Source: Bacteroidota bacterium (lineage in GTDB: Bacteria > Bacteroidota > Bacteroidia > Chitinophagales > Saprospiraceae). Taken from it: a stretch of 64,000 nucleotides of DNA. The DNA is taken from NCBI GenBank assembly GCA_020160935.1, contig JAIUPL010000005.1, positions 1-64,000 of the forward strand. Reading direction: 5' to 3'. Below the pieces are notes generated by a model. The model had not been told where the DNA came from, ran no database searches, and was given only the letters and a program-made list of their open reading frames with translations. Shown one piece after another: positions 19,415-41,018 of this stretch. Made by a program: the position numbers and the translations under genes. Numbering within the stretch: the first letter of the stretch is position 1; each line of letters opens with the position of its first letter.

Positions 19415-20359
19415 ATGCAAACCGCAACAGCAGCGAAAGCCACCACCGCACCCCAAACCACGGGCAGAGACCTTTACCGCGAAGTCACCGATAAAATTAT
19501 CGGCATGATTGAAAAAGGTGTTGCCCCCTGGCGCAGAACCTGGAGCACTTACGGACTTGCCCGCAATTACGCCACCGGCCACATTTACACCGGCATAAAC
19601 ATGATCCTGATGAACAACACGGAACACGCGATCCCCTATTTTATGACGTTCAACCAGATACAGGAACGCGGCGCGCAAATACGCAAAGGCGCAAAAGCGC
19701 AAATGGTCATTTACTTTAATGTGTACTACAAAGACGCGAACGACCAGAACCTCACCAGGTTCGATGCAAGAACACGCGCCGACAGCGGCGAGGAAATACA
19801 GGTTTTGAAGTTCATCAAATATTATAATGTTTTTAATATCGCCGACATTGAAGGGATTGAATTTGAAATCCCCGAAGTGGAATTAAAGCCAAATGAAAAG
19901 ATCGAACGCTGTGAAGCGATCATTGAAAATATGCCCAACCGACCCGAATTGCGGAGCATTGACGGAAACCGCGCTTTTTACTCGCCCATGCACGATTTTG
20001 TAAATATGCCTGCCATTGAACAGTTTGAAACGCCGGAAGATTACTATGCAACTTTCTTTCACGAACTCACCCACGCTACCGGCCATGCTTCCCGCCTTGG
20101 CCGTGAAGAGGTAACAAACCCGCAGATGTTCGGTAGTAAACCTTACAGCCGTGAGGAACTGGTAGCGGAAATGGGCGCTTCTTTCCTTTGCTCCAGCGTT
20201 CAGATTGATTTTGATAACATCATAGAAAATAACGCCGCCTACCTTGCCGGATGGCTCAATGTCCTGAAGGTGGACAGCAAATTTATTTTCAAGGCGGCGG
20301 CAGAAGCGCAGAAAGCAGCCGACTATATTTTGAATCGGAAAGCGGAAGAAAACGGCTGA
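19415..20359 (+). CDS. ArdC-like antirestriction protein (zincin)
   Basis: 314 residues. An N-terminal single-strand DNA-binding domain (DLYREVTDKIIGMIEKG, APWRRTW, TGINMILM, RKGAKAQMVIYF) and a C-terminal zinc metallopeptidase-like domain with HELTHATGH at ~residues 217-225 and the EELVAEMGASFL helix after it. ArdC proteins protect incoming single-stranded DNA from host endonucleases. Its presence on an element that also carries a restriction block fits a broad-host plasmid. Confidence 0.88.
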   Translation: MQTATAAKATTAPQTTGRDLYREVTDKIIGMIEKGVAPWRRTWSTYGLARNYATGHIYTGINMILMNNTEHAIPYFMTFNQIQERGAQIRKGAKAQMVIYFNVYYKDANDQNLTRFDARTRADSGEEIQVLKFIKYYNVFNIADIEGIEFEIPEVELKPNEKIERCEAIIENMPNRPELRSIDGNRAFYSPMHDFVNMPAIEQFETPEDYYATFFHELTHATGHASRLGREEVTNPQMFGSKPYSREELVAEMGASFLCSSVQIDFDNIIENNAAYLAGWLNVLKVDSKFIFKAAAEAQKAADYILNRKAEENG

Positions 20360-22735: not shown

Positions 22736-23230
22736 TCATTCCTTTATAATTAAGTTTCTGGATGAAGCCCAACCATATATAAAATCCCGAATCTCATTAA
22801 TTCGCGGCGCAACCTCCGACTTTCCGTTTCTGATTCCAACGATTGAATGCAATGAAAGCAAGTATTTCATTAACTCCAAGTCATCAGGAGTTGGCGTTTC
22901 ATTAGGGTCAAAATACCCTGGATTAAGCCACTGAGAAAAAATGAAATAGTTATTATCGGAAAAAAATTGTATTGTCTGAGTTACATCTGCTCGGTATTGC
23001 ATGGAACATAAAACGATTCTTGGTTTCTGTTCTCCAATAATATTCCCGACATAACTTTCACGTTCTTCAGGGCTTCCACTGACAAGAAACACATGAACAT
23101 ATTCCCGTTCTCGCAGGTAAAGTTTTCTTATTTTTTTCCCTGTCTTTACTTTGCCTTCAAAAAGTTGATTCCAGGTTGTAGACTTTCCTGAATTCCGGTT
23201 GCCTAATACTGTAATGGCTAGATTTTCCAT
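22736..23230 (-). CDS. Small P-loop protein at the end of the restriction operon
   Basis: 164 residues. Walker A GNRNSGKST (residues ~10-18) after a hydrophobic strand (LAITVLG), and a PRIVLCSMQYRADVTQTI strand with no clear NKxD, so GTPase specificity is doubtful. It starts 17 bases after the Res stop in the same direction and so is the last gene of the operon. It might be a regulatory or sensor NTPase of the system. It converges on the resolvase gene. Confidence 0.55.
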   Translation of the reverse strand: MENLAITVLGNRNSGKSTTWNQLFEGKVKTGKKIRKLYLREREYVHVFLVSGSPEERESYVGNIIGEQKPRIVLCSMQYRADVTQTIQFFSDNNYFIFSQWLNPGYFDPNETPTPDDLELMKYLLSLHSIVGIRNGKSEVAPRINEIRDFIYGWASSRNLIIKE

Positions 23231-23247
23231 ATTGATTATTTAATAGG

Positions 23248-26169
23248 TTACACCTCCCCAGAGCTTAAAACCACATCAAAATCCACTTTCAGCGCATCAA
23301 AATGTTTGCGCCCGCAGCGGATGCGGTCTGCTTCGGAGTTGCGTAGTTTTTCGAAGTCTTTGGTGCCCTTTGTTTCGCGCACCAGGTAAATGGTTGCATC
23401 ATCGTGTTTAACTACCGCCCAGTCGGGGTTGTAGCTTCCGATGGGTGTTTCAATGGCAAACCAGCGCGGCAGTTTCACGAAAAGTTTGATGTCGTCCCGT
23501 TTGTCCAGATCTTCCGCAAATTTGCGTTCTACCTCGCTGTCATAAATCACAGCATCATACACGGATTTTTTTACCTCTAAGCGGGTGCTCAGGTAGCTCA
23601 AAATTTCTTCATCCTCAAACAAACGCATGCTCCATTCCTGTTCCGCAATACGTTCATATTTTATTCCATCAATCATCATCCGGTGAAGTTCGCGGCTGAC
23701 GATGCCCGCCACAGCATCCATAAACTTTTGCGGGTTGATCGCAAATTCTTCCAGACGGCCACTCTTTGTCAAAATAGTAGCCAGGGTGCGCCGGGTGAGT
23801 TCCGTTTCTTTTTGCAGGTAAGCAATGATATCCGGCAAACCGCCAGCATATTTTAGGCGTTGGTAGTTCGAGCGGGTTTCTTGCACTGTAACCCCTTTTT
23901 GCTCTACGCCCAACAATGCCTCTTTATAGGAAATTTGTACTGGCTCAATTTTGTCCATCTGCCTGATGGCCTTCACAGAGGCGGCAATCAGTTCATCGGT
24001 TGAGTAATTTACTTCGTAAGTGGTTTTGAACTTGATACGGTTCCACAATTCCTCAAACTCTGGATCAAGAAACACCTGCTTGTTGATGCGCAGTTTTTTC
24101 GGCTCCTCATCTTTTTTGATATGTCGCTCCAGTTGGTACGACTGCAAAACAGAGATCACTTCTGCTTCTATTTCCTTTAGTTCGCCCGAAAACCCCAGGG
24201 TAAAACCAGATTGTTGTGGGTTGAAAGATGGCTTGATTTTTCCGCTGTCATCCAAAAATCCTTTGCTCACCAGTTCCGCCCAGACTTTCTCTGATTGGTC
24301 GCGTCCAAGCCTGACCTCTTCTTCGTCCACAATTTGTACAATTTTTGCAAAGCCAATCTTCGGTACTTTGCCAAACGTTACGCCACAATCATCCTCATAT
24401 TCTGATTGAAGTTTGCGGGCAAACTCATCGTAACTTTCATTGGCTATAACAGTCAGTTTGTTGATGTTATCATCAAACACCCGTTCGCCATTTTGATTGA
24501 CCGGCAAGCGCAACCCGCGCCCAATTTCCTGCCGTTTCTTCATTACGGAATTAGTTTCATTCAACGTACATATCTGAAATACATTCGGGTTGTCCCAACC
24601 TTCCCGAAGGGCAGAGTGTGAGAAGATAAACTTCAACGGCTCCTCAAGCGAAAGCAACTGCTCTTTGTTTCGCATGATTTTGGAGTACGTGCTATCATCG
24701 GCTTGTGTAGCACCGTTGGTATCTTTAAAAACGCCTTTTTTGTCCTCGGAAAAATAGCCGTCGTGAATTTTTTCAACAGGCTGCATATCCAGTTCCTTGT
24801 ATTGCGGTAAAGCGACCAGCTCTTTGTAATGTTTCTCGAAAAGCAAGGCAAACTTGCCTTTCTCGGCTTTTCCGTCTTCCGTATAGTCGCGGTAATTGGC
24901 AACTCGGTCAATGAAGAAAAGTGAAAGCACCTTGATCCCCTTTCCTCTCAATTGCAATTCTTTATCCAGGTGTTTTTTGATGGTATTGCGGATTTGTACT
25001 TCTACCAAATCTTCCCGGATACCACCCCGTTCCTGACCAAGATAAAGGCGGCCAGCGTTGAAATCAATGAACTCATTTCCGGGTTCTGCACTAATGTCCA
25101 GCACCTCAAAACCATTGCGGTACACCTCGCGCTCATTCGATAAAGCGAACAGATCGGCAGTTTGTTTTACCCAAATATCTTTCTCGCTTACCTTGCCTTT
25201 GCCCTGTACTTGAATTCGGATTTTTGCACGGATGCCGTTTTTATTATCCGTTTCCAGCAGTTTTACATAGGCGGCATTTTGCGCATTTGCGCCTTCAACC
25301 GATGCAACGACGATCTGCTTTACCAGGCGCAGCTCGTATGCCTTGATCGGGTCAAGTTTGTAAACCAGGTTGTACAGATTTTTGTGCGTAGCAGAGTAAC
25401 GGAAGATGCAAAGCGGATTCAGTGATTTGATGGCATCTTGTGCTCGTGGCGTGTTGTCCACACTTTGCGGCTCGTCAATAATCACAATCGGCTTGGTTGC
25501 CTGCACGAACTCGATGGGGCGCCGCCCGGAGAGTTTGTCACTCTCTTTAAAGATGACGTTACTCTTTTTATCGTCCTCACTGTCGGAAAAGTCTTTTCGG
25601 AAGGCATCAATATTGATGACCATGAGTTGCACCTGATTGTTGGAAGCAAACTCCCGCAAGCGGTTGGCCTTCTTACTGTCGTACACGAAGGAAGACACCT
25701 CAATGTTATACAGCGCTTTGAAGTGTTCTTTGGTGATGTCGATGTTTTTTAGCGTTCCTTCCCGGATCGCTACACTCGGCACTACGATGATGAACTTTTT
25801 GAAGCCATATTTCTGGCTCAATTCAAAAATGGTGCGCAGGTACACATAGGTCTTCCCAGTACCCGTTTCCATCTCCACGGAAAAGTTCAAACCATTTTTG
25901 GCAAACTCTTTTTCCGGGATGGTATCAAGATCATTTTCCTCCTGGAGTTTGTTGAGGTTTTTCAATATCGCCTCATCCTCCAAAATCAGGTTGTTTCCAA
26001 TACCTAATTCGGTTTGAAAAATACTACCCTGACCTGATGTGCTTGTCGTGTTAATCTCCACCGTAAAATCACCAAGATTCAATGGTTGTCCATCGAACAG
26101 ATTGGTTATGCTTTCAACGGCAGCAATTTGAAAAGCCTGTGTACTGTCAAACTTTATCTTCATGCTCAT
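23248..26169 (-). CDS. Type III restriction enzyme Res subunit
   Basis: 973 residues. SF2 helicase motifs: TGTGKT at 102-107, IIDEPQ at ~230-235 (DEPQ box), FIFSHSALREGWDNPNV and QEIGRGLRLPVN (motifs V and VI). The C-terminal nuclease shows PDW (D916) and ETKG (E932, K934), a PD-(D/E)xK site. Res translocates from unmodified asymmetric sites and cuts when two complexes meet. The start codon overlaps the Mod stop (ATGA). Confidence 0.92.
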   Translation of the reverse strand: MSMKIKFDSTQAFQIAAVESITNLFDGQPLNLGDFTVEINTTSTSGQGSIFQTELGIGNNLILEDEAILKNLNKLQEENDLDTIPEKEFAKNGLNFSVEMETGTGKTYVYLRTIFELSQKYGFKKFIIVVPSVAIREGTLKNIDITKEHFKALYNIEVSSFVYDSKKANRLREFASNNQVQLMVINIDAFRKDFSDSEDDKKSNVIFKESDKLSGRRPIEFVQATKPIVIIDEPQSVDNTPRAQDAIKSLNPLCIFRYSATHKNLYNLVYKLDPIKAYELRLVKQIVVASVEGANAQNAAYVKLLETDNKNGIRAKIRIQVQGKGKVSEKDIWVKQTADLFALSNEREVYRNGFEVLDISAEPGNEFIDFNAGRLYLGQERGGIREDLVEVQIRNTIKKHLDKELQLRGKGIKVLSLFFIDRVANYRDYTEDGKAEKGKFALLFEKHYKELVALPQYKELDMQPVEKIHDGYFSEDKKGVFKDTNGATQADDSTYSKIMRNKEQLLSLEEPLKFIFSHSALREGWDNPNVFQICTLNETNSVMKKRQEIGRGLRLPVNQNGERVFDDNINKLTVIANESYDEFARKLQSEYEDDCGVTFGKVPKIGFAKIVQIVDEEEVRLGRDQSEKVWAELVSKGFLDDSGKIKPSFNPQQSGFTLGFSGELKEIEAEVISVLQSYQLERHIKKDEEPKKLRINKQVFLDPEFEELWNRIKFKTTYEVNYSTDELIAASVKAIRQMDKIEPVQISYKEALLGVEQKGVTVQETRSNYQRLKYAGGLPDIIAYLQKETELTRRTLATILTKSGRLEEFAINPQKFMDAVAGIVSRELHRMMIDGIKYERIAEQEWSMRLFEDEEILSYLSTRLEVKKSVYDAVIYDSEVERKFAEDLDKRDDIKLFVKLPRWFAIETPIGSYNPDWAVVKHDDATIYLVRETKGTKDFEKLRNSEADRIRCGRKHFDALKVDFDVVLSSGEV

Positions 26170-28124
26170 ACCGTTCTAAAATTTACAACTCCCTTGCTTT
26201 TCATCATCTGAACAGCATTGGTTTTGAGTTGGTCGTTATCTTGAAAACCCTCGTCCAGGCAGATTACACGCGTCGGTTTACGCTCTGCAATTGCCTTTAT
26301 AACCTCATGGGTCAATTGCTTTTCCAAACAGATCAGCAATTCTCCTTCAGCGATGCTAAACACTTTTTTACCCTCGATGCTCATCTGCTCGATGGAAGTT
26401 GTCACTTCAAACCCGGATTTCAAAAGCAATTCATACAATATTGCTTCCTGCTCCGCTTCCGGCGATATATGAGCCACATGAGAAAACAATTGTTGCTGAA
26501 TCGCCTCCGGCGTTTTTTCTACTCCGGCGTTCCAGATATTGAAATTGGACTTTTGCAGTTTGAAAACTTTGAAGCCCAAATCTTGTGGCTTTTGCCTTTC
26601 GCTGAAAAGCGTTTTATTTTCTTTTTGCTCCTTTTTAATTTTTGCGATAACACGACGAATGCGCTCCTTACTTATGTCAGCAATAGTTTTATAGCCCTCT
26701 TTAAAGGCATCATCATCTTCTTCAGTTTTCTCAGGAAGTTGGACGCAGATATATTTAATTTCGGTTTCATTTTCAGCGTTGTACTCCATTACACCATGTG
26801 CAGTAGAGCATGAACCTGCAAAAAAGTCTAAAATAATTGAGTCTGAATCTTCTGACCTTATTGTAAACTCTAATATCTTTTTAATTAAACCAATGGGCTT
26901 GGGCTTAGGGAAAATTTCTTTTTTAAAGCCGAGCTCAATGAATTGTTCTGATCCTCGTTCACTATTGAACACTTTATCTGTCCATGAGCTAGTAGGCTTA
27001 ATTCTTTTTTCTGGAGAAAAATAGTCTTTCTCGAAGACTGACCAAACCTTTTTGTTTGGCATGAATTTGGGCAGAAGATATTTTTTGTTTTTCAAGGCGG
27101 TGTTTAACTCCCACCTCCAGTTTCCTAGTTCACCATTCTCCTTCTGAGGAAATATTTGGGTATATCCACTAGGTATAGATTCATCTCTTGTTGGATAGAA
27201 ATCACCTGTTTCCTCATTAAAGAGAAAATAATAAAACAAGTTAGGTCGGTCATCTTTCCTGTCGTTATCGCCAGTTTTTCTAAGGTCAATTTCTCTATAT
27301 ACTTCGCCCTGCTCATCCTGTTTGTTATACCGACGAGTAACCTTTTCTTCTGGTTGCCAACCCGCAAAGGTAATTTCTTGCTTTTTATATAGAAGCACAT
27401 ATTCATGCGCTGTTGCCACATACTTATCGTCGGAGCGTCCCTTCGGATTATTGGTATTAGCAATACAGGTGATGAAATTTTCCTCGCCAAATATTTCATC
27501 ACAAATTTTTTTTAAATTATCAAATTCATGATTATCAATACTAATAAATATTACGCCATTGTTTGTTAAAAGGTTTTTCGCCAGAAATAATCTTGGATAC
27601 ATCATGTTCATCCATCTGCTATGATAACGCCCATCAGTATCTGTGTTTGTGCTGAATTTTTTTCCTTCAGCATCAACTTGACCAGTGTATGCGAGGTATG
27701 TATCCAGGTTTTCAGAGTAGTCATCAGGATACACGAAATCCTTGCCAGTATTGTATGGCGGATCAATGTAGATCATCTTTACCTTCCCCAAATATGATTT
27801 TTGAAGCAGTTTCAACACTTCCAGATTGTCACCCTCAATGAATAAATTTTGGGTTGTGTCAAAGTCCACGCTTTCTTCCCGTGCCGGAACTAAAGTGGCA
27901 ATACTCGGTTGCTGAATGGTTTTGAAGCATTCGCTTTTACCCGGCCAGTTCATGCCGTAGCGTTCTTTTCCGGTATCCACGGCTTCTCCCAATGTCAGGC
28001 GCAATTTATCCCAGTCCACTTTGCTGCCCTCCGTGAAGGCTTCCGGGAATATCTCTTTGAGGCGCTCCAGTTGGTGCGCTTTTATGTCGAGGGAGGTAAG
28101 CGGGAGTTTTTCGATTTCTGCCAT
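26166..28124 (-). CDS. Type III DNA methyltransferase Mod subunit (beta class, N6-adenine)
   Basis: 652 residues. Catalytic motif IV DPPYNTG at 121-127 comes before the SAM motif DFFAGSCST at 433-441, the beta-class order. The FxGxG-like motif has Cys in place of the second Gly, a position that varies in type III Mods. The C-terminal ~180 residues after FKVFKLQKSNF are the Mod-specific part. It follows the SMC-like ATPase gene by 12 bases and overlaps Res by four. The target site is set by the central region and cannot be read from the sequence. Confidence 0.92.
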   Translation of the reverse strand: MAEIEKLPLTSLDIKAHQLERLKEIFPEAFTEGSKVDWDKLRLTLGEAVDTGKERYGMNWPGKSECFKTIQQPSIATLVPAREESVDFDTTQNLFIEGDNLEVLKLLQKSYLGKVKMIYIDPPYNTGKDFVYPDDYSENLDTYLAYTGQVDAEGKKFSTNTDTDGRYHSRWMNMMYPRLFLAKNLLTNNGVIFISIDNHEFDNLKKICDEIFGEENFITCIANTNNPKGRSDDKYVATAHEYVLLYKKQEITFAGWQPEEKVTRRYNKQDEQGEVYREIDLRKTGDNDRKDDRPNLFYYFLFNEETGDFYPTRDESIPSGYTQIFPQKENGELGNWRWELNTALKNKKYLLPKFMPNKKVWSVFEKDYFSPEKRIKPTSSWTDKVFNSERGSEQFIELGFKKEIFPKPKPIGLIKKILEFTIRSEDSDSIILDFFAGSCSTAHGVMEYNAENETEIKYICVQLPEKTEEDDDAFKEGYKTIADISKERIRRVIAKIKKEQKENKTLFSERQKPQDLGFKVFKLQKSNFNIWNAGVEKTPEAIQQQLFSHVAHISPEAEQEAILYELLLKSGFEVTTSIEQMSIEGKKVFSIAEGELLICLEKQLTHEVIKAIAERKPTRVICLDEGFQDNDQLKTNAVQMMKSKGVVNFRTV

Positions 28125-28136
28125 AGTTTGTTTCGA

Positions 28137-30464
28137 TTAAGTTGGTTCTTGGAAAGGATGCATTCGTATGGATTTTGAACGGGTTTCATGATACTCTCCC
28201 GTACTTTTTTTGCTAGGAAAATCACCTGATTCAGGACATATTAGTGCTTGTGCAAGGCTAAGGGTTGTTTTAGCAAAATTCTCAACATCATCATCACTTA
28301 CATCAGAGCCACTTAAATTAAAATGTGCACCTACTTTGTTGCGAATAAAGGACAGTTTTTTCAATTCATCAAAAAGGGGAAGCAATATTATTTCTTCCAT
28401 ACCAGCGCTGATGTCATATTTTCCAGTAGTATCTTTTTTCAGATGTTCTACCCTTAAACTTTTTGAAAGTTTGGATGATATGGCATCTAATAACTCTCCC
28501 AAAGTATAGTCTAAGGCAATTTTTCTACGAACCTTGCAAGAATAGGTAAGAGTTAGATAATCAAATATATTTTCTAATAATATACCAGCCTTAGCAGCCA
28601 TTTGCTGTCTGTCAAAATATGAAGAAGTGATAGCCTCTTGAAGTTCTTGAACAAGATTTTTCCCAACTTGATGGCGAATACCCGTTTTAAGTGACCAAGG
28701 ACGAAGTTCAATAAAGTGTACTTCTCCTTCGGGCGCACGTTTATACCGGTATCGATCCCGCCAAGCACGATAGTGTGTTGTTATTAAGATATGTGCAAAA
28801 TCGCCTGATAGACTATGCAAAAGGTCAATGAATCGATCCAAATGACTTTCATCAACTGACATCACCACATCATCTAAAAGAAGGATAGTCTCTCTCCCAC
28901 CATATTTTTTAGCAAGCGACAAAAAAACGCAGAGGCCAAGTGTATCAAGGTGCGACTCACTATAAACGGATTGTGGAGATATATCAGTTTGCCCTTGAAA
29001 ACTGGCTGAGAGGTTTAGCGATTTTCTGACGTTCGGTTTCAAAGTTATCTGAATCCCTCCAATGTTTTCATTAGGATGCAAACTTTGGTACATTGCTTCC
29101 ACCTCTTCCGAAATGGATGAAAGTTCATTTTCTATATATTCTTTTCGGGAGGTTTCGACAATTTTTAATGCCTCTTTGGCATTTATCAGCACCAGTTCGG
29201 TTTCTTCCGCTTTTTTTTGGTTCTCATTGATTGCTTTTAACTGGCTTTTAATGAGGTTATTCTGCGAAATCGAACTTTGAGATTTTGTTCTTTCGGTTTT
29301 AAAATTCGTTACATCTTGCTCCAGCGCTGTGTGATTCTCTTGAAACAACTCGATTTGTTGCGTCAATGGCAGACTTGTTTGCTGCCAAGGCTCCCATCTG
29401 CTACGTTCAATGCCGCTAAATTCTTTACTCGCCCTTCCTAATGCGATGAGTGCGCTTGATAGAGTTTGTTGCGCGCTTTGGAGAAAATCACCCGCGCGTT
29501 TTTCTTCCTGCTCGATAGTTTTTTTCTTGCTAATTAGTTGCTGATATTCACTGTGTGATTGAACGGTCTTGACAATAGAGTCCAACAAAACTTCTTTTTC
29601 TACGGGGCTAGAACAGAGCGGGCATTCATGTAATTCTGTCTGTCGCTGAATGAATTTTCCGGCAGAATCAAGAAGTGTAATCAAATCTTGGTTAATATTT
29701 TGGTTGGTCGCCTCAAATTTTTCCAGATTTATAGCGTGTTCTGCTTTCCGTTTAGCCACCTCTTCAGTAGCAATCTCTTTCTCTTTTAAAAGGCTTATAT
29801 TCCTTTCAACGCTATCCCATGCAGAGACCAATGCATCAATGCGTGCAACTTTAACCTGTTCAACCTGTAAGTCCTTCCCGGCTTCCATCTCTGCCCATAA
29901 TTCCCAACCAGCCATGGGCGATCCTTCATTTATCCAGGCGGCTTCAAGAGTATTTGAGGCACTTACTAAAGTAGTTGTCTGCGTAGTTAAATCTGCTTCT
30001 AAGCGTTGAACCAATCGACGAAGTCCATCCTCGGAGCCCATAATGCTTTCTACATCAATATAGTCCTTGAGTTCTTCATAACGGCTTGCAGGCTGTGCTT
30101 CAATGAGTTTGACTATTTGACTGCGGCGAAGCTGGCGAAGTTTAGGATATGATTTTCCAGCATTTTTATGGAATTTTCCACTGTTTAGCGTGGCACTATA
30201 CTCATCTCCATCAGTCACTAATTTTAGCAATACATCATTTGCCGATGTCCCTATCGCAACCAAAAACTGTTTATCTGCACCTGATTTATCACTCATTGAA
30301 CCAAGTGATTCTGTACATAAACAGGTAATTGAATCAGCAATAGTAGATTTTCCAGTGCCATTTTCTCCAAAAACCATTGTCAGTTTTTTGGAGCGGTCAA
30401 ACTCAAACGAAAACGGTTGTGTCGCTCCGCGAAAGGCGTTTATTTCAAGTTTTAGGAGTTTCAT
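28137..30464 (-). CDS. SMC/RecF-like ATPase with zinc hook and C-terminal HEPN-like motif
   Basis: 775 residues. Walker A GENGTGKS at 33-40; coiled coil ~160-460 broken by a zinc-hook motif CPLCSSPV at 281-288; LLLDDVVMSVDESHL near 540 is Walker B with the D-loop; H-loop ITTHYRAW follows. The last ~120 residues are helical and contain RNKVGAHF (R708, H714), the R-x(4-6)-H spacing of HEPN RNases. It overlaps the small upstream gene by 20 bases and precedes mod by 12, so it belongs to the restriction operon. Whether the HEPN-like end is catalytic is unknown. Confidence 0.8.
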   Translation of the reverse strand: MKLLKLEINAFRGATQPFSFEFDRSKKLTMVFGENGTGKSTIADSITCLCTESLGSMSDKSGADKQFLVAIGTSANDVLLKLVTDGDEYSATLNSGKFHKNAGKSYPKLRQLRRSQIVKLIEAQPASRYEELKDYIDVESIMGSEDGLRRLVQRLEADLTTQTTTLVSASNTLEAAWINEGSPMAGWELWAEMEAGKDLQVEQVKVARIDALVSAWDSVERNISLLKEKEIATEEVAKRKAEHAINLEKFEATNQNINQDLITLLDSAGKFIQRQTELHECPLCSSPVEKEVLLDSIVKTVQSHSEYQQLISKKKTIEQEEKRAGDFLQSAQQTLSSALIALGRASKEFSGIERSRWEPWQQTSLPLTQQIELFQENHTALEQDVTNFKTERTKSQSSISQNNLIKSQLKAINENQKKAEETELVLINAKEALKIVETSRKEYIENELSSISEEVEAMYQSLHPNENIGGIQITLKPNVRKSLNLSASFQGQTDISPQSVYSESHLDTLGLCVFLSLAKKYGGRETILLLDDVVMSVDESHLDRFIDLLHSLSGDFAHILITTHYRAWRDRYRYKRAPEGEVHFIELRPWSLKTGIRHQVGKNLVQELQEAITSSYFDRQQMAAKAGILLENIFDYLTLTYSCKVRRKIALDYTLGELLDAISSKLSKSLRVEHLKKDTTGKYDISAGMEEIILLPLFDELKKLSFIRNKVGAHFNLSGSDVSDDDVENFAKTTLSLAQALICPESGDFPSKKSTGEYHETRSKSIRMHPFQEPT

Positions 30465-30669
30465 TTGATGCGGGTTTTGATTTTATTATTTGTTCAAGAG
30501 CAACTCTCCAGCTGCTATCTCCAAGTTTGCCTTGTCCGAGGTTCTTTATAAATTCTGCCTTGCCGTCATCAGTAATCAGTCCAGCATCAAACAACTTTTG
30601 AAAAATCTGTTGCGCTAGAATCTCATTCGGGTTTTGAGTAGGCTGTTCAGGTGTTACTTGATTGTCCAT
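30445..30669 (-). CDS. 74-residue linker gene of the restriction operon
   Basis: A short protein: Pro/Gln/Asn-rich start (VTPEQPTQNPNE), then two helices (ILAQQIFQKLFDAGLITDDG, SSWRVALEQIIKSK). It overlaps the SNF2 gene by 16 bases and the SMC-like gene by 20, in different frames, so translation is coupled on both sides. It may be an adaptor between helicase and ATPase. No family recognised. Confidence 0.65.
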   Translation of the reverse strand: MDNQVTPEQPTQNPNEILAQQIFQKLFDAGLITDDGKAEFIKNLGQGKLGDSSWRVALEQIIKSKPASNETPKT

Positions 30670-33530
30670 CGGATTAAGAATAGTTCAGTTGTTGAAAGTA
30701 ATTGTTGGAGTTTTTTTTCAATCTCGTCAATGAGTCGATCCTTGCCTTGATCGATTTCTTTTGCGGCCTCGTCGTATTCCCGCCAAGCCTTGTCACGGTC
30801 TGATTCAATTCGTTGCCGTTCCCGTTCTAATTTAAGTTTTTCAGGCAGGTTGGGTGCTATACGCGCTTGCTTTTTCAGATCCTTTATCTGAGCATCCAGT
30901 TCTTTAAGTGTTGCCTTCAAGGAACTTCTACGATCATCGCCCCACTTATCCAATTTCTCCAATTCCATATCAAAAAAATTTGCGTTGCGTGCGCCAATCT
31001 CTCCAAGAATGGTATTTTTCTTTTTTGAAAGATCATCTATAAGTGCTTCTTTTTGAGTGGGTGATAAGGCAGCCTCGCTACCTTCATGTGCGGAAAGCGA
31101 GAACAAGCGACGACAATGCTCTTCTTCCAGCGCTGTTCCATCATCACATATTCCTGTGAGTATAATATGATCTTCTTCTTCAAAAGAAGTTACTGACATC
31201 ATTTCTGCCATTATCCACCCGGACTTGTTACATAGTGACGCCAGAATGGTTATAATCTTCTGGTTTCCGGTATAATCAAAAATCAGCTCCCGTGCCGGCA
31301 GGTCATAATCTTTGCATTTACCAATAATTAATTGTGCCAATGGATGACCGATACGATACACGTTAGCATCATCGATGCTTTTCCCAATACGATAAGGGCC
31401 AGGATGTATTTTGGTTCCTGGAAACGGATTGTTAATAAGTCTAAAACTGTGCTCATCAGCAGTGGCAAAGATTGCATCGCCATTGAGGTAAAATCTTGTT
31501 ATGTCCCATAGCAGATTTTCATATTTAGAGAGGTATTCTCTGCTTTCCTGCAAGTTTATCTTCAGTTTTTCATGTACTTCTTCGTCAAAATTCTCCAATA
31601 ACTGCTGGCGGGTTTGCTGCATGGCATTTGAGATTTGCCCTTCTAATTCCGATTGTAAAATATTGAACGCTACCTCGATCTGTTCAATCGTCCGGCAGTC
31701 TTGATAAATCTTTGCTATGCGCTTTTCAAAATCAATACCGTTTTCAATACTTCCAAGTACTTCGTCACTGGCTCCAAAAACCCCATTAAACAGGTTAAAT
31801 TTATCACGGAGTAGTGCATAAACCCGTTGATCGGCAGCATTTGCTTTGTTGAGGAAATTAACTACGACCACATCATATTTTTGCCCATAGCGATGACAAC
31901 GACCGATGCGTTGCTCAATACGTTGTGGATTCCAAGGCAGGTCATAGTTAATAAGCAACGAACAGAACTGAAGATTGATGCCTTCAGCCGCCGCTTCTGT
32001 TGCAATCATGATCGTCGCTTCCTCACGGAAATAGTCCACTAATGCTGCACGAATATCTGCGGTTCGTGATCCAGATATACGATCCGTGTTCTTGTGCTGC
32101 TCTATCCAGGCATTATAAATCTCACGAGATTTTTGATCCGAGTTGGAACCATTAAAAAGTACTACTTCCCCTTCATAGCCACGTGTTTCCAAATTGGCGC
32201 GAATATATTCCTGTGTTCGAGTGCTTTCTGTAAAAATAATTGCCTTGCGCGGAGCACCAAGACGCTGCAACTCACGAAACCCATTTTCCAGGGCTGTGAA
32301 AAGTTTTTCGCCTTTGGAGTTTTTATCAATGGAGATTGCCAAGTCCTCAAATTCTTTAAGGGTAACGATCTCGTCTCTCATCCCATCTATGTCCGCAGGT
32401 GTAAATTGTTGCTCCTCCTTCGCCTCTTCTTCTTCGTTCCACTCATCTTTCAATTCGTCATAGGTCTCGAAATCTTCGGCAACTGTTGCTTCAAACTCAT
32501 CGGCTTCGTCATGTCTGGCTACTATGTTTTCCAGTTTCGCGACCAGAGCTCCTAGTGTTTTGGAAATTGCAAAAGTGGAAGATGCCAGAAGTCGGCGCAA
32601 GATCAATGTCATCAACTGCCTCTGGCTAGAGGGTAGTGCATAAAGAGTATCACCTTGTAAATATTCAGAAACAAGATCGTAAAGGCGTTGCTCCTCCTGT
32701 GTTGGATAGAACTCCTCGACCAAGGCAATACGGTTAGTATATTTGATATATTCTAAGACCTGTCGGCGAAGCGTTCGTTTGCAAATGGGTTTAAGCCGTT
32801 CCTTCAACTCCTTAAACATGCCCTCGTCGAGTGTACTGTTTACTTTACTATACTGAGAACGGAAGCTTTTAAGGTCGCCAAAAGCATAATCGTCGATGAT
32901 GCTGACCAGGCCATATAACTCCAAAAGCGAGTTTTGGAGTGGTGTTGCAGTAAGTAGAATTTTCGGTGCATGTTCGAGCGACTCCTTGATAGAGCGAGCG
33001 ATTTTGTTGCTTGTTTTGTAAACATTGCGCAAGCGGTGTGCCTCGTCAATCACTACCAAGTCCCAATCCACAAGACGTAAATATGCCTCTTTGGTTCGTG
33101 CAAATTGGTATGAACATAATATAATATGCGCCTGGTTGAACGGGTTTAGGTTGCCCGTTTTGATCGTATCGTTGAAAGATTTTGCCTCCAGAATGAACGA
33201 GGGTAAGAAAAACTTGTCCTGCAACTCCTGACTCCATTGCTTGCGCAAATTCGCTGGAGTTATGATGAGTATCTTTCTTTTTCTTTCAGCCCATTTCTGT
33301 GAAATAACCAAACCAGCCTCAATAGTTTTCCCCAATCCTACCTCATCGGCAAGTATTGCACCTTTAGAAAGCGGAGAACGGAACGCGAATAACGCGGCCT
33401 CTACCTGATGCGGGTTCAGATCAACTTGTGCATCAACCAAGGTAGCAGCCAGTTTTTGCATACTGTCTGAGGCACTGCGCTTGGTGAGTTCATAAGCGAA
33501 AAATTTAGCGTGATAAGGGGTAAACTGCAT
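30654..33530 (-). CDS. SNF2/RapA-like helicase heading the restriction operon
   Basis: 958 residues from the ATG at 33530. SNF2 motifs: DEVGLGKT at 62-69 of this start, IDEAHRLRN ~160, LLTATPLQNS ~195, then the second RecA fold with FNGSNSDQKS, ATEAAAEGINLQ and RIEQRIGRCHRYGQ. A long acidic insert (~350-390) and a C-terminal coiled coil (LKATLKELDAQIKDLKKQA). RapA/HepA-like translocases remodel protein-DNA complexes; DISARM DrmD is one defence relative. It is the first gene of the six-gene unit. Confidence 0.85.
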   Translation of the reverse strand: MQFTPYHAKFFAYELTKRSASDSMQKLAATLVDAQVDLNPHQVEAALFAFRSPLSKGAILADEVGLGKTIEAGLVISQKWAERKRKILIITPANLRKQWSQELQDKFFLPSFILEAKSFNDTIKTGNLNPFNQAHIILCSYQFARTKEAYLRLVDWDLVVIDEAHRLRNVYKTSNKIARSIKESLEHAPKILLTATPLQNSLLELYGLVSIIDDYAFGDLKSFRSQYSKVNSTLDEGMFKELKERLKPICKRTLRRQVLEYIKYTNRIALVEEFYPTQEEQRLYDLVSEYLQGDTLYALPSSQRQLMTLILRRLLASSTFAISKTLGALVAKLENIVARHDEADEFEATVAEDFETYDELKDEWNEEEEAKEEQQFTPADIDGMRDEIVTLKEFEDLAISIDKNSKGEKLFTALENGFRELQRLGAPRKAIIFTESTRTQEYIRANLETRGYEGEVVLFNGSNSDQKSREIYNAWIEQHKNTDRISGSRTADIRAALVDYFREEATIMIATEAAAEGINLQFCSLLINYDLPWNPQRIEQRIGRCHRYGQKYDVVVVNFLNKANAADQRVYALLRDKFNLFNGVFGASDEVLGSIENGIDFEKRIAKIYQDCRTIEQIEVAFNILQSELEGQISNAMQQTRQQLLENFDEEVHEKLKINLQESREYLSKYENLLWDITRFYLNGDAIFATADEHSFRLINNPFPGTKIHPGPYRIGKSIDDANVYRIGHPLAQLIIGKCKDYDLPARELIFDYTGNQKIITILASLCNKSGWIMAEMMSVTSFEEEDHIILTGICDDGTALEEEHCRRLFSLSAHEGSEAALSPTQKEALIDDLSKKKNTILGEIGARNANFFDMELEKLDKWGDDRRSSLKATLKELDAQIKDLKKQARIAPNLPEKLKLERERQRIESDRDKAWREYDEAAKEIDQGKDRLIDEIEKKLQQLLSTTELFLIRWTIK

Positions 33531-33709
33531 ATCTTTTTTTACCAATAACTAATGGATTATCAAGGTGATAATCAGCCTGCTGCAAATATAGTACCCAAAC
33601 TTTCATTTACTCAAATAAGTACAGAGACCTAAGATAATTTAGGGTTGATAAATGAGGCTGGCTAAAACTTCGGCGGCTCGAAGCAGGCACCTCATTTACA
33701 CATGTGAAC

Positions 33710-34525
33710 TTACCAAGGCGTTTTATAACATTCATCTAACTTCTTATGGGCAAATGAGATAACCGCCAAGGCTTCTACTGCGTCGTCCTCGTTGATTGCC
33801 CACTTTATTTTTGGAGCGTGGGCGGTAACATTCCTGAACATACCAAAAACACCAACGAGGAAATTAGCGAACCCTTTATGCTCACTAATTTCTGATCCAT
33901 TGGAGAGAAAATTAACTGCTAATTTGGGTTGATTATTTGCCCCTAATCCAAATGCCTTTGCTATTAAATCACCTCCATCTTCGGTCAGCGAAGACATCTC
34001 TCTGACCCTTTCAGCAATGCTCTTTGAGGCTTCAAGTACGGCATGGAAGTAATTTTCTTTCAGCAACTCTTCCCGGCAATATTTCAATAATTCAGAATGT
34101 ATTTTCCGTTCCTGAAGTTTTTTACGTAGGCGGCCCGCTCGCTCTTTTGCTTCATCAATAGTCTGTGCCACAACAACGCTTTCCAACTCTCCTTTTTCTG
34201 TTACTCGCCATCCAACGAATGCTAATTGTACGTTCAATTCGTGTCGGCGGTGGTCAAACATCTCCTCATTGTTGGCATAATTTGAGGGGTGCATAACCTT
34301 TTTTATAAAAGCAAAAACATTATTTGAACATCTGTCTTGCTCCTGTTTTTGATGTAAAGCATCAAACAACCGATCACGCTTAGTTATGCCAGGGGAAGGA
34401 TCGTCAATCCCGGAATCTCGTAGGTACTTGGTCATTTCCGTGCCCGTTAATCCGGAGTTTGTATCGCCAATTAGCGCAGAGATGGCGCGAAGTATATTTG
34501 ACTCGATTTTGGGATATGCTACCAT
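33710..34525 (-). CDS. TIGR02391 (Ymh)-like protein with HEPN-type motif
   Basis: 271 residues. The C-terminal half matches the TIGR02391 family as I remember it: HAVLEASKSIAERVREMS, LAVNFLSNGSEISEHKGF, and FRNVTAHAPKIKW, whose R-x4-H spacing is HEPN-like. The family often sits in defence loci and is proposed to act as an abortive RNase. It lies 180 bases upstream of the SNF2 gene with its own short gap, so it may be a separate unit. The N-terminal ~120 residues include a YLRDSGIDDPSP segment like a winged helix. Confidence 0.7.
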   Translation of the reverse strand: MVAYPKIESNILRAISALIGDTNSGLTGTEMTKYLRDSGIDDPSPGITKRDRLFDALHQKQEQDRCSNNVFAFIKKVMHPSNYANNEEMFDHRRHELNVQLAFVGWRVTEKGELESVVVAQTIDEAKERAGRLRKKLQERKIHSELLKYCREELLKENYFHAVLEASKSIAERVREMSSLTEDGGDLIAKAFGLGANNQPKLAVNFLSNGSEISEHKGFANFLVGVFGMFRNVTAHAPKIKWAINEDDAVEALAVISFAHKKLDECYKTPW

Positions 34526-34595: not shown

Positions 34596-35651
34596 TCACT
34601 TCAAACTATACCAAACCGACCGCCCCTTTCCATTTGATTCAATCAGCTCGCGGTCAAGTAATGACTGAAAATGTTTCTTAAGTGTGTTACGGCTCACGTT
34701 GGTAATCTGGCTGGCCTGACCAACTGACAGGCGGCCATGTTTCCGCAGCAGGTCAAGAATGGTAACAGACTGCTCCGGAAGTTTGGCGAGTAGAATCTTT
34801 TCCTTTTCCACCTTCTGTTTCAGATTGTGCATTTGCTGCCGCAATGCCTTCAGGAAAAACAACAACCATGGCTCCCAGTCAGGGTTTTCCGTGCGAATGC
34901 TTCCTTGAGTACGCCTCAATGCCAGATAATATTCTTCTTTGTTTTGCTCAATTACACTTTCGAGCGAGCTGTAAGGAACATAAGCATACCCTGCCCTCAA
35001 TAGCATCAGTGTAGTCAAAACGCGGCTAAGGCGTCCATTCCCATCTTGAAAAGGATGAATCTCCAGAAAAACCACGATAAAAATACCAATGGCTATTAGA
35101 GGATGGACGGCTTTGTTTTCTGCAAACTCACTATACCAGTTCACCAGTTCGGTCATCAATCTTGGCGTATCAAATGGCGTTGCCGTTTCAAAGACAATCC
35201 CCACTTGTTTGCCATCTGCATCAAATGCCACCACATTGTTTGTGTTCGTTTTATAATTCCCTCTGTGCCTCGTATCTTTTTCACTGTGTCTTAGTAAGTC
35301 CCGGTGTAACTGCCGAATATGGTTTTCTGTTATGGCTATTTCTGCCGAGGAAGAAAAAACGGTATTCATTACATCCGCGTAACCAGCTACCTCCTGCTCA
35401 TCGCGAGACTTGAAAGATTTGATTGCGAGGTTGGAAAGAAGTCGTTCCACTTCTCTATCGCTAAGTTTACTGCCTTCAATACGGGTGGAGGAGCCGATAC
35501 TTTCAATTGTGGCTACATGCCTCAATGCAGAAAGGCGCTCTGGTGCTAAAGTACCGAGCGCCCGCCATGCTCCCTTAAACTCGTCAATCTCTCCGATTAG
35601 ACTGAGGAAATCATGGGTAATTTTTAATGTGTGGATTTTAAACACATCCAT
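34596..35651 (-). CDS. Fic family AMPylase-like protein with C-terminal HTH
   Basis: 351 residues. Fic motif HPFQDGNGRLSR (residues ~199-210) with an intact catalytic His, and an N-terminal inhibitory helix motif SSTRIEG (~53-59), so class II with self-inhibition. The C-terminus (GRLSVGQASQITNVSRNTLK ... SLLDRELIESNGKGRS) is a winged helix. Family members transfer AMP to target proteins. The start codon lies inside one of two 32-bp repeats, suggesting autoregulation through the HTH. Confidence 0.88.
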   Translation of the reverse strand: MDVFKIHTLKITHDFLSLIGEIDEFKGAWRALGTLAPERLSALRHVATIESIGSSTRIEGSKLSDREVERLLSNLAIKSFKSRDEQEVAGYADVMNTVFSSSAEIAITENHIRQLHRDLLRHSEKDTRHRGNYKTNTNNVVAFDADGKQVGIVFETATPFDTPRLMTELVNWYSEFAENKAVHPLIAIGIFIVVFLEIHPFQDGNGRLSRVLTTLMLLRAGYAYVPYSSLESVIEQNKEEYYLALRRTQGSIRTENPDWEPWLLFFLKALRQQMHNLKQKVEKEKILLAKLPEQSVTILDLLRKHGRLSVGQASQITNVSRNTLKKHFQSLLDRELIESNGKGRSVWYSLK

Positions 35652-36665: not shown

Positions 36666-37874
36666 TTATTCAATAATGATGTTGTGGTATTTGTCCATCA
36701 CCTCTTTATCGAAGGAGTTGAGGTACACTTGGGTTACTTCCTCTGATGTATGCCCCAACGCTTCGCTGATAACGGCGGTCGGCACACCTTTATATTTAGC
36801 AATGGTTGCGTAGGAGTGACGAGCCACATAACTGGAAAGCGTCGCTTCAATTCCGCAGGCTTCGCCTATTTCCTTGAGGGAGCGGTTGAAGCGTCGCAAG
36901 GCATCGCGTACATTCACCAGTTGCCTGGCAGGCTCTTTCGATTTTATCACATTCAGTATAAAATCCTCTTTCCCTTTATCAGCGAGGTATTTATCCAAAA
37001 TGTTCTGTAGGAGTGCAGATACCGGAATGGAATGCAGCCTGCCGGTTTTTCTTCGCTTGTATTCAATTCGACCTTTGGCAATGTTTTTCACTTGCAGGAA
37101 AGCAATATCTACGAATGAGGCTCCCATTAGATAAAAACTGAGCATAAAGTAATCTTTAGCCCAAGATTGTCTCTGGGTAATCGGTACATACTGCCTGATC
37201 TTTTCCAGATCGGCCACCGAAATAGCCCGCTTGCGGGTTGAATCGGTTTTAATGCTGTAATCTGTAAAGGGATAGTAATCCCTGCTGATGGCCTTTTCTT
37301 TAATGGCGCGGTTGAACAAAGCCCGAAGGGTTCGTAGACTTACACTCAGACCGTTCACCGAGTTGCCTTTGGACAGATACCACGCTTCATATTTTTTCAG
37401 CCAGGCAAAAGTGATCTGACGCAACGGAATATCCCTGCCTCGTGAGAAATCCTGAACACTCCGGAGCATCGTATCGTAAACACGGGCGTTACCAAACTTC
37501 TTCGCCACTTGAAGTTCGGCGATAATATCTCGCCCGAAAGCGATCACCATTGCTTCGGCGCTTTTATTGTTTATGATGTCCTTCAGTTCATTCAGGTTGA
37601 GCGTGTCCAGTACGCCTTCATCCTGAAGACGCACCAGCACATCCAGTATCTTTTGCTTTTCTTTGTTGAGGAAGGAATTCAGGCGCGTGACGTTTTCAAT
37701 CGTCTTGCAGGTCACTTTAATTTTCTGGCCTTTTTCATCCCAGTCCTTTTCAAGCAGGTTATACCCAAGGCCGATGTCGAAAGGCTTACGGTTGTGAACC
37801 ACCCTTAATTTGAGCGGAAAAAGGTTGCCTTTTTTGGCGTAACGAGTGTCGAGAATAATGTTTACAGAAACCAT
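36666..37874 (-). CDS. Tyrosine integrase of the element
   Basis: 402 residues from the ATG at 37874; the upstream TTG at 37907 lies in the arm sites. An arm-binding domain at the N-terminus (VNIILDTRYAKKGNLFPLKL), a SAM-like core-binding domain (~110-200), and a catalytic domain with KTGRLHSIPV, YVARHSYATIAKYKG (H-x-x-R region), ALGHTSEEVTQVYL (final Tyr). The first catalytic Arg position reads YLMGASFVDIA, without Arg, as in many Bacteroidota integrases. It sits 133 bases from attR and should act on the tRNA-Pro core. Confidence 0.9.
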   Translation of the reverse strand: MVSVNIILDTRYAKKGNLFPLKLRVVHNRKPFDIGLGYNLLEKDWDEKGQKIKVTCKTIENVTRLNSFLNKEKQKILDVLVRLQDEGVLDTLNLNELKDIINNKSAEAMVIAFGRDIIAELQVAKKFGNARVYDTMLRSVQDFSRGRDIPLRQITFAWLKKYEAWYLSKGNSVNGLSVSLRTLRALFNRAIKEKAISRDYYPFTDYSIKTDSTRKRAISVADLEKIRQYVPITQRQSWAKDYFMLSFYLMGASFVDIAFLQVKNIAKGRIEYKRRKTGRLHSIPVSALLQNILDKYLADKGKEDFILNVIKSKEPARQLVNVRDALRRFNRSLKEIGEACGIEATLSSYVARHSYATIAKYKGVPTAVISEALGHTSEEVTQVYLNSFDKEVMDKYHNIIIE

Positions 37875-37886
37875 CCGCTTGAAAAT

Positions 37887-37937
37887 TTGCAAGCAATTTG
37901 CAAGCAAAGATAGGTTTCAAGTGGTTTATTTGCAAGC
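37887..37937. promoter_or_regulatory. Candidate right arm-type integrase sites
   Basis: TTGCAAGC at 37887, 37898 and 37930. The first two have the same 11-bp spacing as the pair at 1412-1430. They lie just upstream of the integrase start, so binding could also repress it. Confidence 0.55.
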
Positions 37938-40799: not shown

Positions 40800-41008
40800 C
40801 AGCAGACGAACTAATCCGGGAGTTTCTTTCCGACGACCTCTTTGAGGAAAAGCATGGCATCAGCAAAGATGCCGCTGCCCAATGGAGGCTAAATCAAAAT
40901 TCGGATAATAAACTCATTGCTACCTTTAGGGTAGCGATATCTAAAAAGAAAAACGACGATTCTGAAGAAACAATAGTAAGAAATATCAACCAACTCCTTA
41001 GTAAATAA
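40796..41008 (+). CDS. 70-residue protein between helicase and DndD-like ATPase
   Basis: A short helical protein: TADELIREFLSDDLFEEKHG, then KDAAAQWRLNQNSDNKLIAT and a C-terminal helix. It overlaps the helicase stop by four bases and ends ten bases before the ATPase gene. From memory, similar small proteins accompany Dnd-type loci; their role is unknown. It may link the two large proteins. Confidence 0.65.
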   Translation: MTADELIREFLSDDLFEEKHGISKDAAAQWRLNQNSDNKLIATFRVAISKKKNDDSEETIVRNINQLLSK

Positions 41009-41018
41009 CAAGTTAAGT

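Follow-up and report, generated by a model that had tools for sequence, protein, structure and literature searches.

Do six genes that lie head to tail in a Saprospiraceae genome (Bacteroidota; assembly GCA_020160935.1) form one composite defence system, and which of them belong to it? The genes are found in the first 64,000 nucleotides (nt) of contig JAIUPL010000005.1, the stretch analysed here and called the window below. They encode an SNF2 helicase, a protein of 74 amino acids (aa), an SMC-like ATPase, the type III restriction-modification (R-M) proteins Mod and Res, and a P-loop protein. We found that five of the six, SNF2, the 74-aa gene, the SMC-like ATPase, Mod and Res, are a recurring unit. 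On balance, we favour reading it as a mobile SNF2-containing type III R-M operon that carries a self-contained two-gene backup cartridge (the 74-aa gene and the ATPase), one of several that can be exchanged. The best description of its parts is a chassis of SNF2 and type III genes joined to a putative RloC-like backup RNase, the RNase assignment coming from a sequence motif.

Organization of the operon

The six open reading frames (ORFs) are located on the minus strand and run from 33530 to 22736. An earlier note on this DNA gave their order and spacings correctly, as all five junctions recomputed from the coordinates are identical. SNF2 and the 74-aa gene overlap by 16 bases, the 74-aa gene and the ATPase gene by 20. 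A gap of 12 bases separates the ATPase from Mod, and one of 17 separates Res from the P-loop gene. A promoter-like site found in a motif scan, TTTG-N21-TATATTTG (33583..33615, minus strand), ends 52 bases before the SNF2 ATG. This pattern, which we take to be the Bacteroidota promoter consensus, occurs 5 times in the window, where 1.40 occurrences are expected, and 1 of 100 shuffles reaches 5.

The first gene (30654..33530) encodes an SNF2/DrmD-like helicase of 958 aa (P0001), identified by PADLOC and NCBIfam matches and by the motifs GLGKT, DEAH, TATP and RIGRCHRYGQ. The cartridge follows, with the 74-aa small partner protein (P0002; 30445..30669) and a Rad50/SMC-like ATP-binding cassette (ABC) ATPase of 775 aa (P0003; 28137..30464). 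Mod (P0004; 26166..28124) is a type III DNA methyltransferase of 652 aa, matching PADLOC MTase_III at 653 bits. It carries a DPPY motif and an N6/N4 methylase domain; the strict FxGx[G/S] pattern is absent, and the sequence reads DFFAGSCSTAHG at the expected place. Res (P0005; 23248..26169), a type III helicase-endonuclease of 973 aa, matches PADLOC REase_III at 1012 bits. It contains the motifs GTGKT and PDW...ETK, a superfamily 2 (SF2) helicase domain and the PD-(D/E)xK nuclease domain PF19778. Searched with P0005, the genome yields the window Res as its sole copy.

Mod and Res thus have the defining domains of type III R-M systems of the EcoP15I kind, and like them are adjacent, with a 4-base gene overlap. 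Unlike those systems, the window operon adds a recurring SNF2 in front and a slot for the two-gene cartridge. This SNF2 accompanies both the short and the long Mod classes. The last gene (22736..23230), encoding the 164-aa P-loop protein (P0006), was counted as a member by the earlier note. We rejected it as a sixth member, since tblastn at E<=0.01 found no relative of it in the compared SNF2 loci; it is probably a neighbour of the operon, outside the system.

The SNF2-Mod-Res frame in other genomes

Of 296 phylum genomes searched, 20, counting the source genome, have a relative of the SNF2 protein at E<=1e-100, as do 3 of 100 genomes of the family. At E<=1e-60 such relatives are found in 51 plasmid records. 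Six of these records were opened, among them Salmonella and Klebsiella conjugative plasmids with the annotated order SNF2, Mod, Res, and the proteins of the six seeded profiles for a scan of named loci. The best 80 of 568 candidates were kept, so the sample leans towards close relatives. Together with the window, the 6 plasmids and 19 stretches from the phylum, this gave 106 loci. Where a longer stretch had been retrieved, it took the place of a short locus (L001, L006-L027), and L017 and L025 are not counted. L169 and L170, which also have SNF2-Mod-Res, are outside the counts.

An SNF2 ORF is present in 104 of the 106 loci (L124 and L126 have none above 250 bits). Mod is located downstream on the same strand in 83 of the 104, and Res as well in 65 of the 83. 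The 21 SNF2 loci without Mod have less than 3 kb of downstream DNA in 10 cases, 3-8 kb in 5 and at least 8 kb in 6. When only loci with at least 7.5 kb downstream are considered, the window excluded, Mod is found downstream in 63 of 69, and Mod or Res on the same strand on either side in 66 of 69. Without the six plasmid loci that seeded the profiles, these counts are 57 of 63 and 60 of 63. The linkage of the helicase to mod/res seen in the earlier note is therefore not chance. The exceptions are L076, L118 and L129; in L129 the neighbours of the SNF2 gene are GmrSD and a helicase that contains an MZB domain. Of the named loci, 59 have Mod downstream; they come from 14 named phyla, and two more have no phylum assigned. 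The closest organism-named SNF2 among the best 80 loci, at 69%, belongs to a Bacteroidetes metagenome-assembled genome (MAG).

The components of the frame differ in how closely they vary together. Pairwise distances in 41 loci of the short Mod class correlate at r 0.93 for Mod and Res, at r 0.38 for SNF2 and Mod and at r 0.49 for SNF2 and Res, the last two not reached in any of 2000 permutations. SNF2 and the ATPase correlate at r 0.51 in nine loci, a value reached in 3 of 2000 permutations. Pairwise identity in eight loci is 48-69% for SNF2, 22-74% for Mod and 27-56% for the ATPase. We read these values as Mod-Res pairs and cartridges swapping around a steadier SNF2.

A common helix-turn-helix (HTH) gene before SNF2 was also considered, and the idea is only partly true. 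A small ORF is located there in 39 of 89 loci; two HTH-like clusters with 9 and 4 members were recognized by eye and from plasmid annotation, and no HTH gene was seen before SNF2 in the window. Several variant arrangements were observed. In L104 and L110 the order is reversed, with Mod and Res upstream of SNF2. In L098, L101 and L103, SNF2-Mod-Res is followed by recurring ORFs of ~380 and ~920 aa, and in L130 by ORFs of 1160 and 558 aa. Three loci of the control set described below (L156, L157 and L159) have, upstream of Mod-Res, another and only distantly related SNF2-like helicase, 1064-1091 aa long, that scores 87-91 bits against the profile.

Recurrence and exchange of the cartridge

The cartridge occupies the slot between SNF2 and Mod in the window and in ten further loci (L035, L036, L053, L077, L091, L096, L127, L131, L093 and L174). 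In all 11 the small ORF precedes the ATPase, and the pair is upstream of the Mod position. Mod is merely a 66-aa fragment in L131, and in L093 the contig ends before it could appear. The cartridge shares the slot with further inserts in L035, L036 and L091. Named hosts are a Bacteroidetes MAG, a deltaproteobacterium, two Nitrospira, a Rhodobacteraceae MAG, an Omnitrophota MAG and an Acidobacteriaceae MAG. On L174, a contig of 51.7 kb from a viral collection, the order of all five genes is that of the window and the overlaps are comparable; an HTH_3 gene precedes the operon. Its proteins are 71% (SNF2), 42% (SMC), 55% (Mod) and 71% (Res) identical to those of the window; the small proteins give no BLAST match and were aligned at 29%.

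The ATPase family is found at E<=1e-40 in 3 of 395 phylum genomes, in all three within this operon. A search with P0003 alone confirmed no relative in genome contigs and gave no match in phage records, and P0002 matched no family in PADLOC, Pfam and NCBIfam scans. Distant relatives of the ATPase are present on Rhizobium plasmids, one of which (L028) points towards an SNF2-Mod-Res operon from the other side.

A rapidly built tree of 78 SNF2 proteins requires nine changes for the nine cartridge-bearing rows, at least seven of them forced by well supported branches. This is no fewer than under label shuffling, where the mean is 8.7 and 500 of 500 shuffles are as low. AIPR genes, found in slots of the same operons, are clustered on the tree, with 4 changes for 7 rows, a number as low as that of 1 in 500 shuffles. 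The cartridge appears and disappears along the SNF2 tree, gains being indistinguishable from losses.

Two insert slots

Inserts are found both between SNF2 and Mod (slot 1) and between Mod and Res (slot 2). The distance is at least 400 bp in 51 of 83 loci for slot 1 and in 23 of 65 for slot 2, and by this threshold 45 of 65 loci have either slot occupied. The inserted ORFs number 129. Eighteen were set aside as shorter than 90 aa or as Mod copies, nine are the ATPases, and ten more were set aside by hand as short or dubious, one of them beside an annotated IS256 transposase. The remaining 92 were scanned with Pfam. Among the first 25 of 81 families, AIPR, AAA_21 and AAA_15 occur 9 times each, Schlafen AlbA_2 7 times, DUF4276, YhcG_C and Peptidase_M78 5 times each, RhuM, Bro-N and Fic 4 times each, and Abi_2, GmrSD_N and SIR2_2 twice each. 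AAA_15 and DUF4276 include PARIS-like genes. Several of the insert families are known from abortive, toxin or guardian systems.

The two slots differ in their use. All nine ATPases and all nine AIPR genes are located before Mod (18 of 18), and YhcG (4 of 5) and RhuM (4 of 4) after it (8 of 9). Schlafen genes (6 before Mod, 1 after) and Fic genes (2 and 2) are mixed. Fisher's test gave p 4e-6 for this preference, a value that is overstated because related loci were treated as independent.

A zinc-hook ATPase with a HEPN-type motif

P0003 contains the motifs GENGTGKS, CPLC, SESHLDTLG and LLLDDV, and a C-terminal RNKVGAH. The Walker A core, a C-P-x-C hook in the coiled coil, S-x-x-H-x-D-T-L-G and a DD Walker B are invariant in seven ATPases. 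The hook is formed by residues 281-284 (codons at 29613..29624, minus strand), of which C281, P282 and C284 are the invariant ones. A Foldseek search with the full P0003 model returned Rad50 and SMC proteins as top matches. The C-terminal domain, residues 599-775 (28140..28670, minus strand), is predicted to be helical and carries RNKVGAH at 708-714; RN..G.H is present in the C-terminal part of 13 of 15 full-length relatives. As judged from the sequence, RN..G.H has the form of a HEPN active site, and the ATPase probably ends in a HEPN RNase. The two extra DNA motors and possible RNase of the earlier note correspond to SNF2 and this ATPase.

The closest known plan is that of RloC. P0003 shares with it a Rad50-like, coiled-coil ABC ATPase with a CxxC hook and a C-terminal RNase-type motif. 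Unlike RloC and PrrC, it has no match to Pfam AAA_13, presumably the family of both, and its operon includes a small partner gene and SNF2. Its 775 aa fall within the 658-897 aa described for RloC. The RloC triad R-x3-E-x36-52-H, as given in PMC2610378, is absent from P0003 and has 1 match among 13 sequences. RloC identity was rejected for the absence of this triad, and P0003 is RloC-like in plan and outside RloC. An N-terminal ABC ATPase with a C-terminal HEPN domain is also described for ERFG_01251 and APECO1_4465 (PMC3710099). These types, compared by description only, are placed in CRISPR or prophage settings, and the excerpted descriptions mention no small partner or SNF2-type III context. 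The same 2013 source proposed that HEPN genes linked to restriction systems provide multi-level defence.

Proposed mechanism

The families suggest how such an operon might work. Mod would place N6-methyladenine on a single strand of an asymmetric site, and DNA lacking this mark would be cut by Mod-Res. SNF2, as its family implies, would travel on the same DNA and clear or report obstacles for Mod-Res. The zinc-hook ATPase would sense DNA ends or jammed restriction complexes, as RloC senses DNA breaks. On sensing, its HEPN domain would cut RNA, and the infected cell would be stopped. The small protein may be an adaptor for docking or a restraint of the ATPase. In the scheme put forward by the earlier note, restriction would come first and an abortive response would be the fallback; this order is an inference. 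RloC is described as a zinc-hook ATPase and RNase that is activated by DNA breaks and controlled through the zinc hook (PMC3874168, PMC2610378). Eight of 72 RloC genes are reported in type I or type III loci, and two are linked to ArdC, one of these to type III (PMC2610378). These links make the proposed mechanism a natural one.

Several observations weigh against the mobile operon with its backup cartridge, and some concern the frame. SNF2 is perhaps no permanent component of the restriction complex, because it covaries with Mod much less than Res does. A control set of 118 phylum genomes contains 20 with a type III Res by PF19778. Eight of its 10 complete Mod-then-Res pairs without this SNF2 hold an insert (L165, where Res comes first, and four stretches that are incomplete are outside this count). 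The inserts are three YhcG genes, one each of Bro-N, DUF4276 and AAA_15, a Schlafen gene accompanied by a ParA-like one, and a weak match to a transposase. Type III inserts thus do not need this SNF2, and inserted backup genes are common in the type III operons of the phylum. Slot-2 inserts were accordingly rejected as a mark of the SNF2 subtype, and the statement of the earlier note that classical type III systems are Mod-Res only does not hold for these pairs.

Other observations concern the cartridge. It is not always beside Mod-Res: three Hymenobacter/Fibrella plasmids, from 3 of 5 matches opened, have the small gene and the ATPase with the motif and no mod/res within 22-kb stretches. Two Rhizobium relatives of the ATPase do not contain RN..G.H. 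Pfam HEPN_AbiU2 is matched in one member, at E 0.14. A profile of the C-terminal domain found no HEPN protein in the PDB and did not match the window's Ymh protein P0007, and a single-sequence model of the domain is poor, with a predicted local distance difference test (pLDDT) score of 51. The plasmid pairs (L002, L003 and L004), which also speak for a cartridge able to stand alone, are located near MPN- or ThiF-type genes, with patatin genes in L003 and L004.

Alternative readings

Other explanations of the same genes were weighed. The rival readings are compatible with one another and with the mobile operon and its cartridge. A bolder version of the latter, which we regard as doubtful, makes SNF2 the docking and licensing hub of an unnamed, widespread type III subtype. 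Slot-1 cargo would fire when SNF2 encounters Mod-Res in a stalled or inhibited state, and the window cartridge would represent a two-gene family of RNases that sense DNA ends, new and distinct from both RloC and Lamassu. Cargo of this kind would include the zinc-hook ATPase-HEPN, AIPR, Schlafen and PARIS-like proteins, giving one chassis with many suicide programmes.

The operon may be a form of defence-island storage, in which a common promoter serves transfer and regulation of cartridge and restriction genes that act independently. The plasmid copies without mod/res and the inserts in type III operons without this SNF2 are consistent with storage, and GmrSD-like defences embedded in Hma operons are reported to act independently (PMC11411939). 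The slot preference of the insert families argues against it, as does the location of the ATPase in this operon in all three phylum genomes that encode it. We consider storage possible, though rather unlikely.

Also unlikely, to a similar degree, is that the cartridge is a single-chain relative of Lamassu or ABC-3C, with the small gene as middle component, the ATPase as sensor of hairpins or ends, and the effector fused. The best PADLOC match of P0003 is LmuB, at 79 bits, and chains of the Lamassu LmuACB complex rank 9 and 17 among the 50 Foldseek matches listed. As in Lamassu, ABC-3C and DdmABC, a small gene precedes a Rad50-like sensor ATPase with a CPxC hook. It stands where LmuC, described as the middle component of Lamassu (PMC10586767), would be. 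However, it does not match the LmuC profile, no LmuA or LmuC was found among nine proteins scanned with PADLOC, and no LmuB or Lamassu chain is named among the 60 listed of 74 PDB sequence matches. Unlike in those systems, the RNase-type domain of the window is located on the ATPase itself. The Walker B motif also differs, with DD in the window ATPase and an E-to-Q change described for LmuB (PMC10586767).

A guardian arrangement similar to PrrC or PARIS appears somewhat less probable still. The Mod-Res-SNF2 complex would silence the cartridge, and a phage anti-restriction protein, not DNA ends, would release it. PrrC and PARIS have been called R-M guardian systems (PMC12707154), and the inserts include AAA_15 and DUF4276 genes of PARIS-like type. 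The slot preference suggests a partner-specific contact, and an ArdC gene is present in the same window. On the other side, the plasmid copies of the cartridge have no mod/res beside them, and the zinc-hook plan is closer to the DNA-break sensor RloC than to PrrC.

Relation to known systems

P0001 shares an SNF2 core with DrmD of DISARM and matches PADLOC DrmD (PDLC02619) at 694 bits; its 699 bits against NCBIfam DrmD_b are below the cut-off of 950. None of the 19 window proteins scanned with PADLOC has DrmA, DrmB or DrmC as best match, unlike in DISARM. A genome-wide search, which covered DrmA only, gave five helicase-level matches and was also positive in 13 of 14 control genomes; P0001 itself cross-matches PADLOC DrmA at 126 bits. 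DISARM identity was rejected on the lack of DrmA, DrmB and DrmC beside SNF2 and on the DrmD_b score. That SNF2 is a stray DrmD among unrelated genes is highly improbable despite the PADLOC score and the L129 neighbourhood, as it misses the curated cut-off, is the genome's own best DrmA match and is linked to Mod/Res in most loci.

Hma and BREX were compared as well. Among the best 25 PADLOC families per protein, HmaA (178 bits) and BrxH (225 bits) were matched by SNF2 only. Within this range neither a DUF499/BrxC ATPase nor a PglX/HmaB-type methylase was found, and the Pfam scan gave no DUF499.

The earlier note knew of no named system with this gene set and proposed a check against named models. 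PADLOC has no model for the whole set; SNF2 alone matches one, DrmD. No name for an SNF2-Mod-Res system was found among the titles and abstract openings listed, in a search thin on subscription journals and preprints. That part of the claim stands, and its implied novelty is reduced by embedded backups that are already known. Payne et al. (2024) reportedly described embedded defences in restriction operons. Published examples of backups in such operons include TgvAB (PMC11411939), DarTG2 with RptR (PMC12255303) and BREX backup effectors (PMC12839542). A CoCoNuT figure legend lists symbols for SWI2/SNF2 and Mod/Res, and the neighbourhood may be drawn there (PMC11090510). As in the Hma, BREX and type I cases, backup systems are inserted in a multi-gene restriction operon; unlike there, the host operon in the window is type III with SNF2. 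The recurring arrangement is real, and it is a variant of embedded-backup restriction operons, the newness being at the level of a variant because such backups are already known in type I, BREX and Hma operons.

Surroundings of the operon

The surroundings look like a mobile, defence-rich region. Upstream of SNF2, PADLOC and Pfam identified a PD-Lambda-3_B (Ymh) protein (33710-34525) and a Fic protein (34596-35651), both on the minus strand. The Fic protein shares 70% identity with a Fic protein whose gene immediately precedes SNF2 in an alphaproteobacterial MAG (L112, 8882-9925). A tyrosine integrase (36669-37904) is next to a second defence-like pair on the plus strand (38568-43223), PbeA (1017 bits) followed by a PbeC-like coiled-coil ATPase (111 bits). 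The ArdC-type anti-restriction protein (19415-20356, plus strand) and a TrwC relaxase (10491-13286) are on the other side of the operon, and a Mutator transposase is found further out in the window.

Implications

If SNF2 is a working part, type III restriction gains a third conserved protein in many lineages. A working SNF2 could account for the way in which sliding type III enzymes deal with obstacles on DNA. Backup effectors that can be exchanged within one restriction frame would also offer a tractable case for the coupling of restriction to abortive infection, through swaps of the cartridge.

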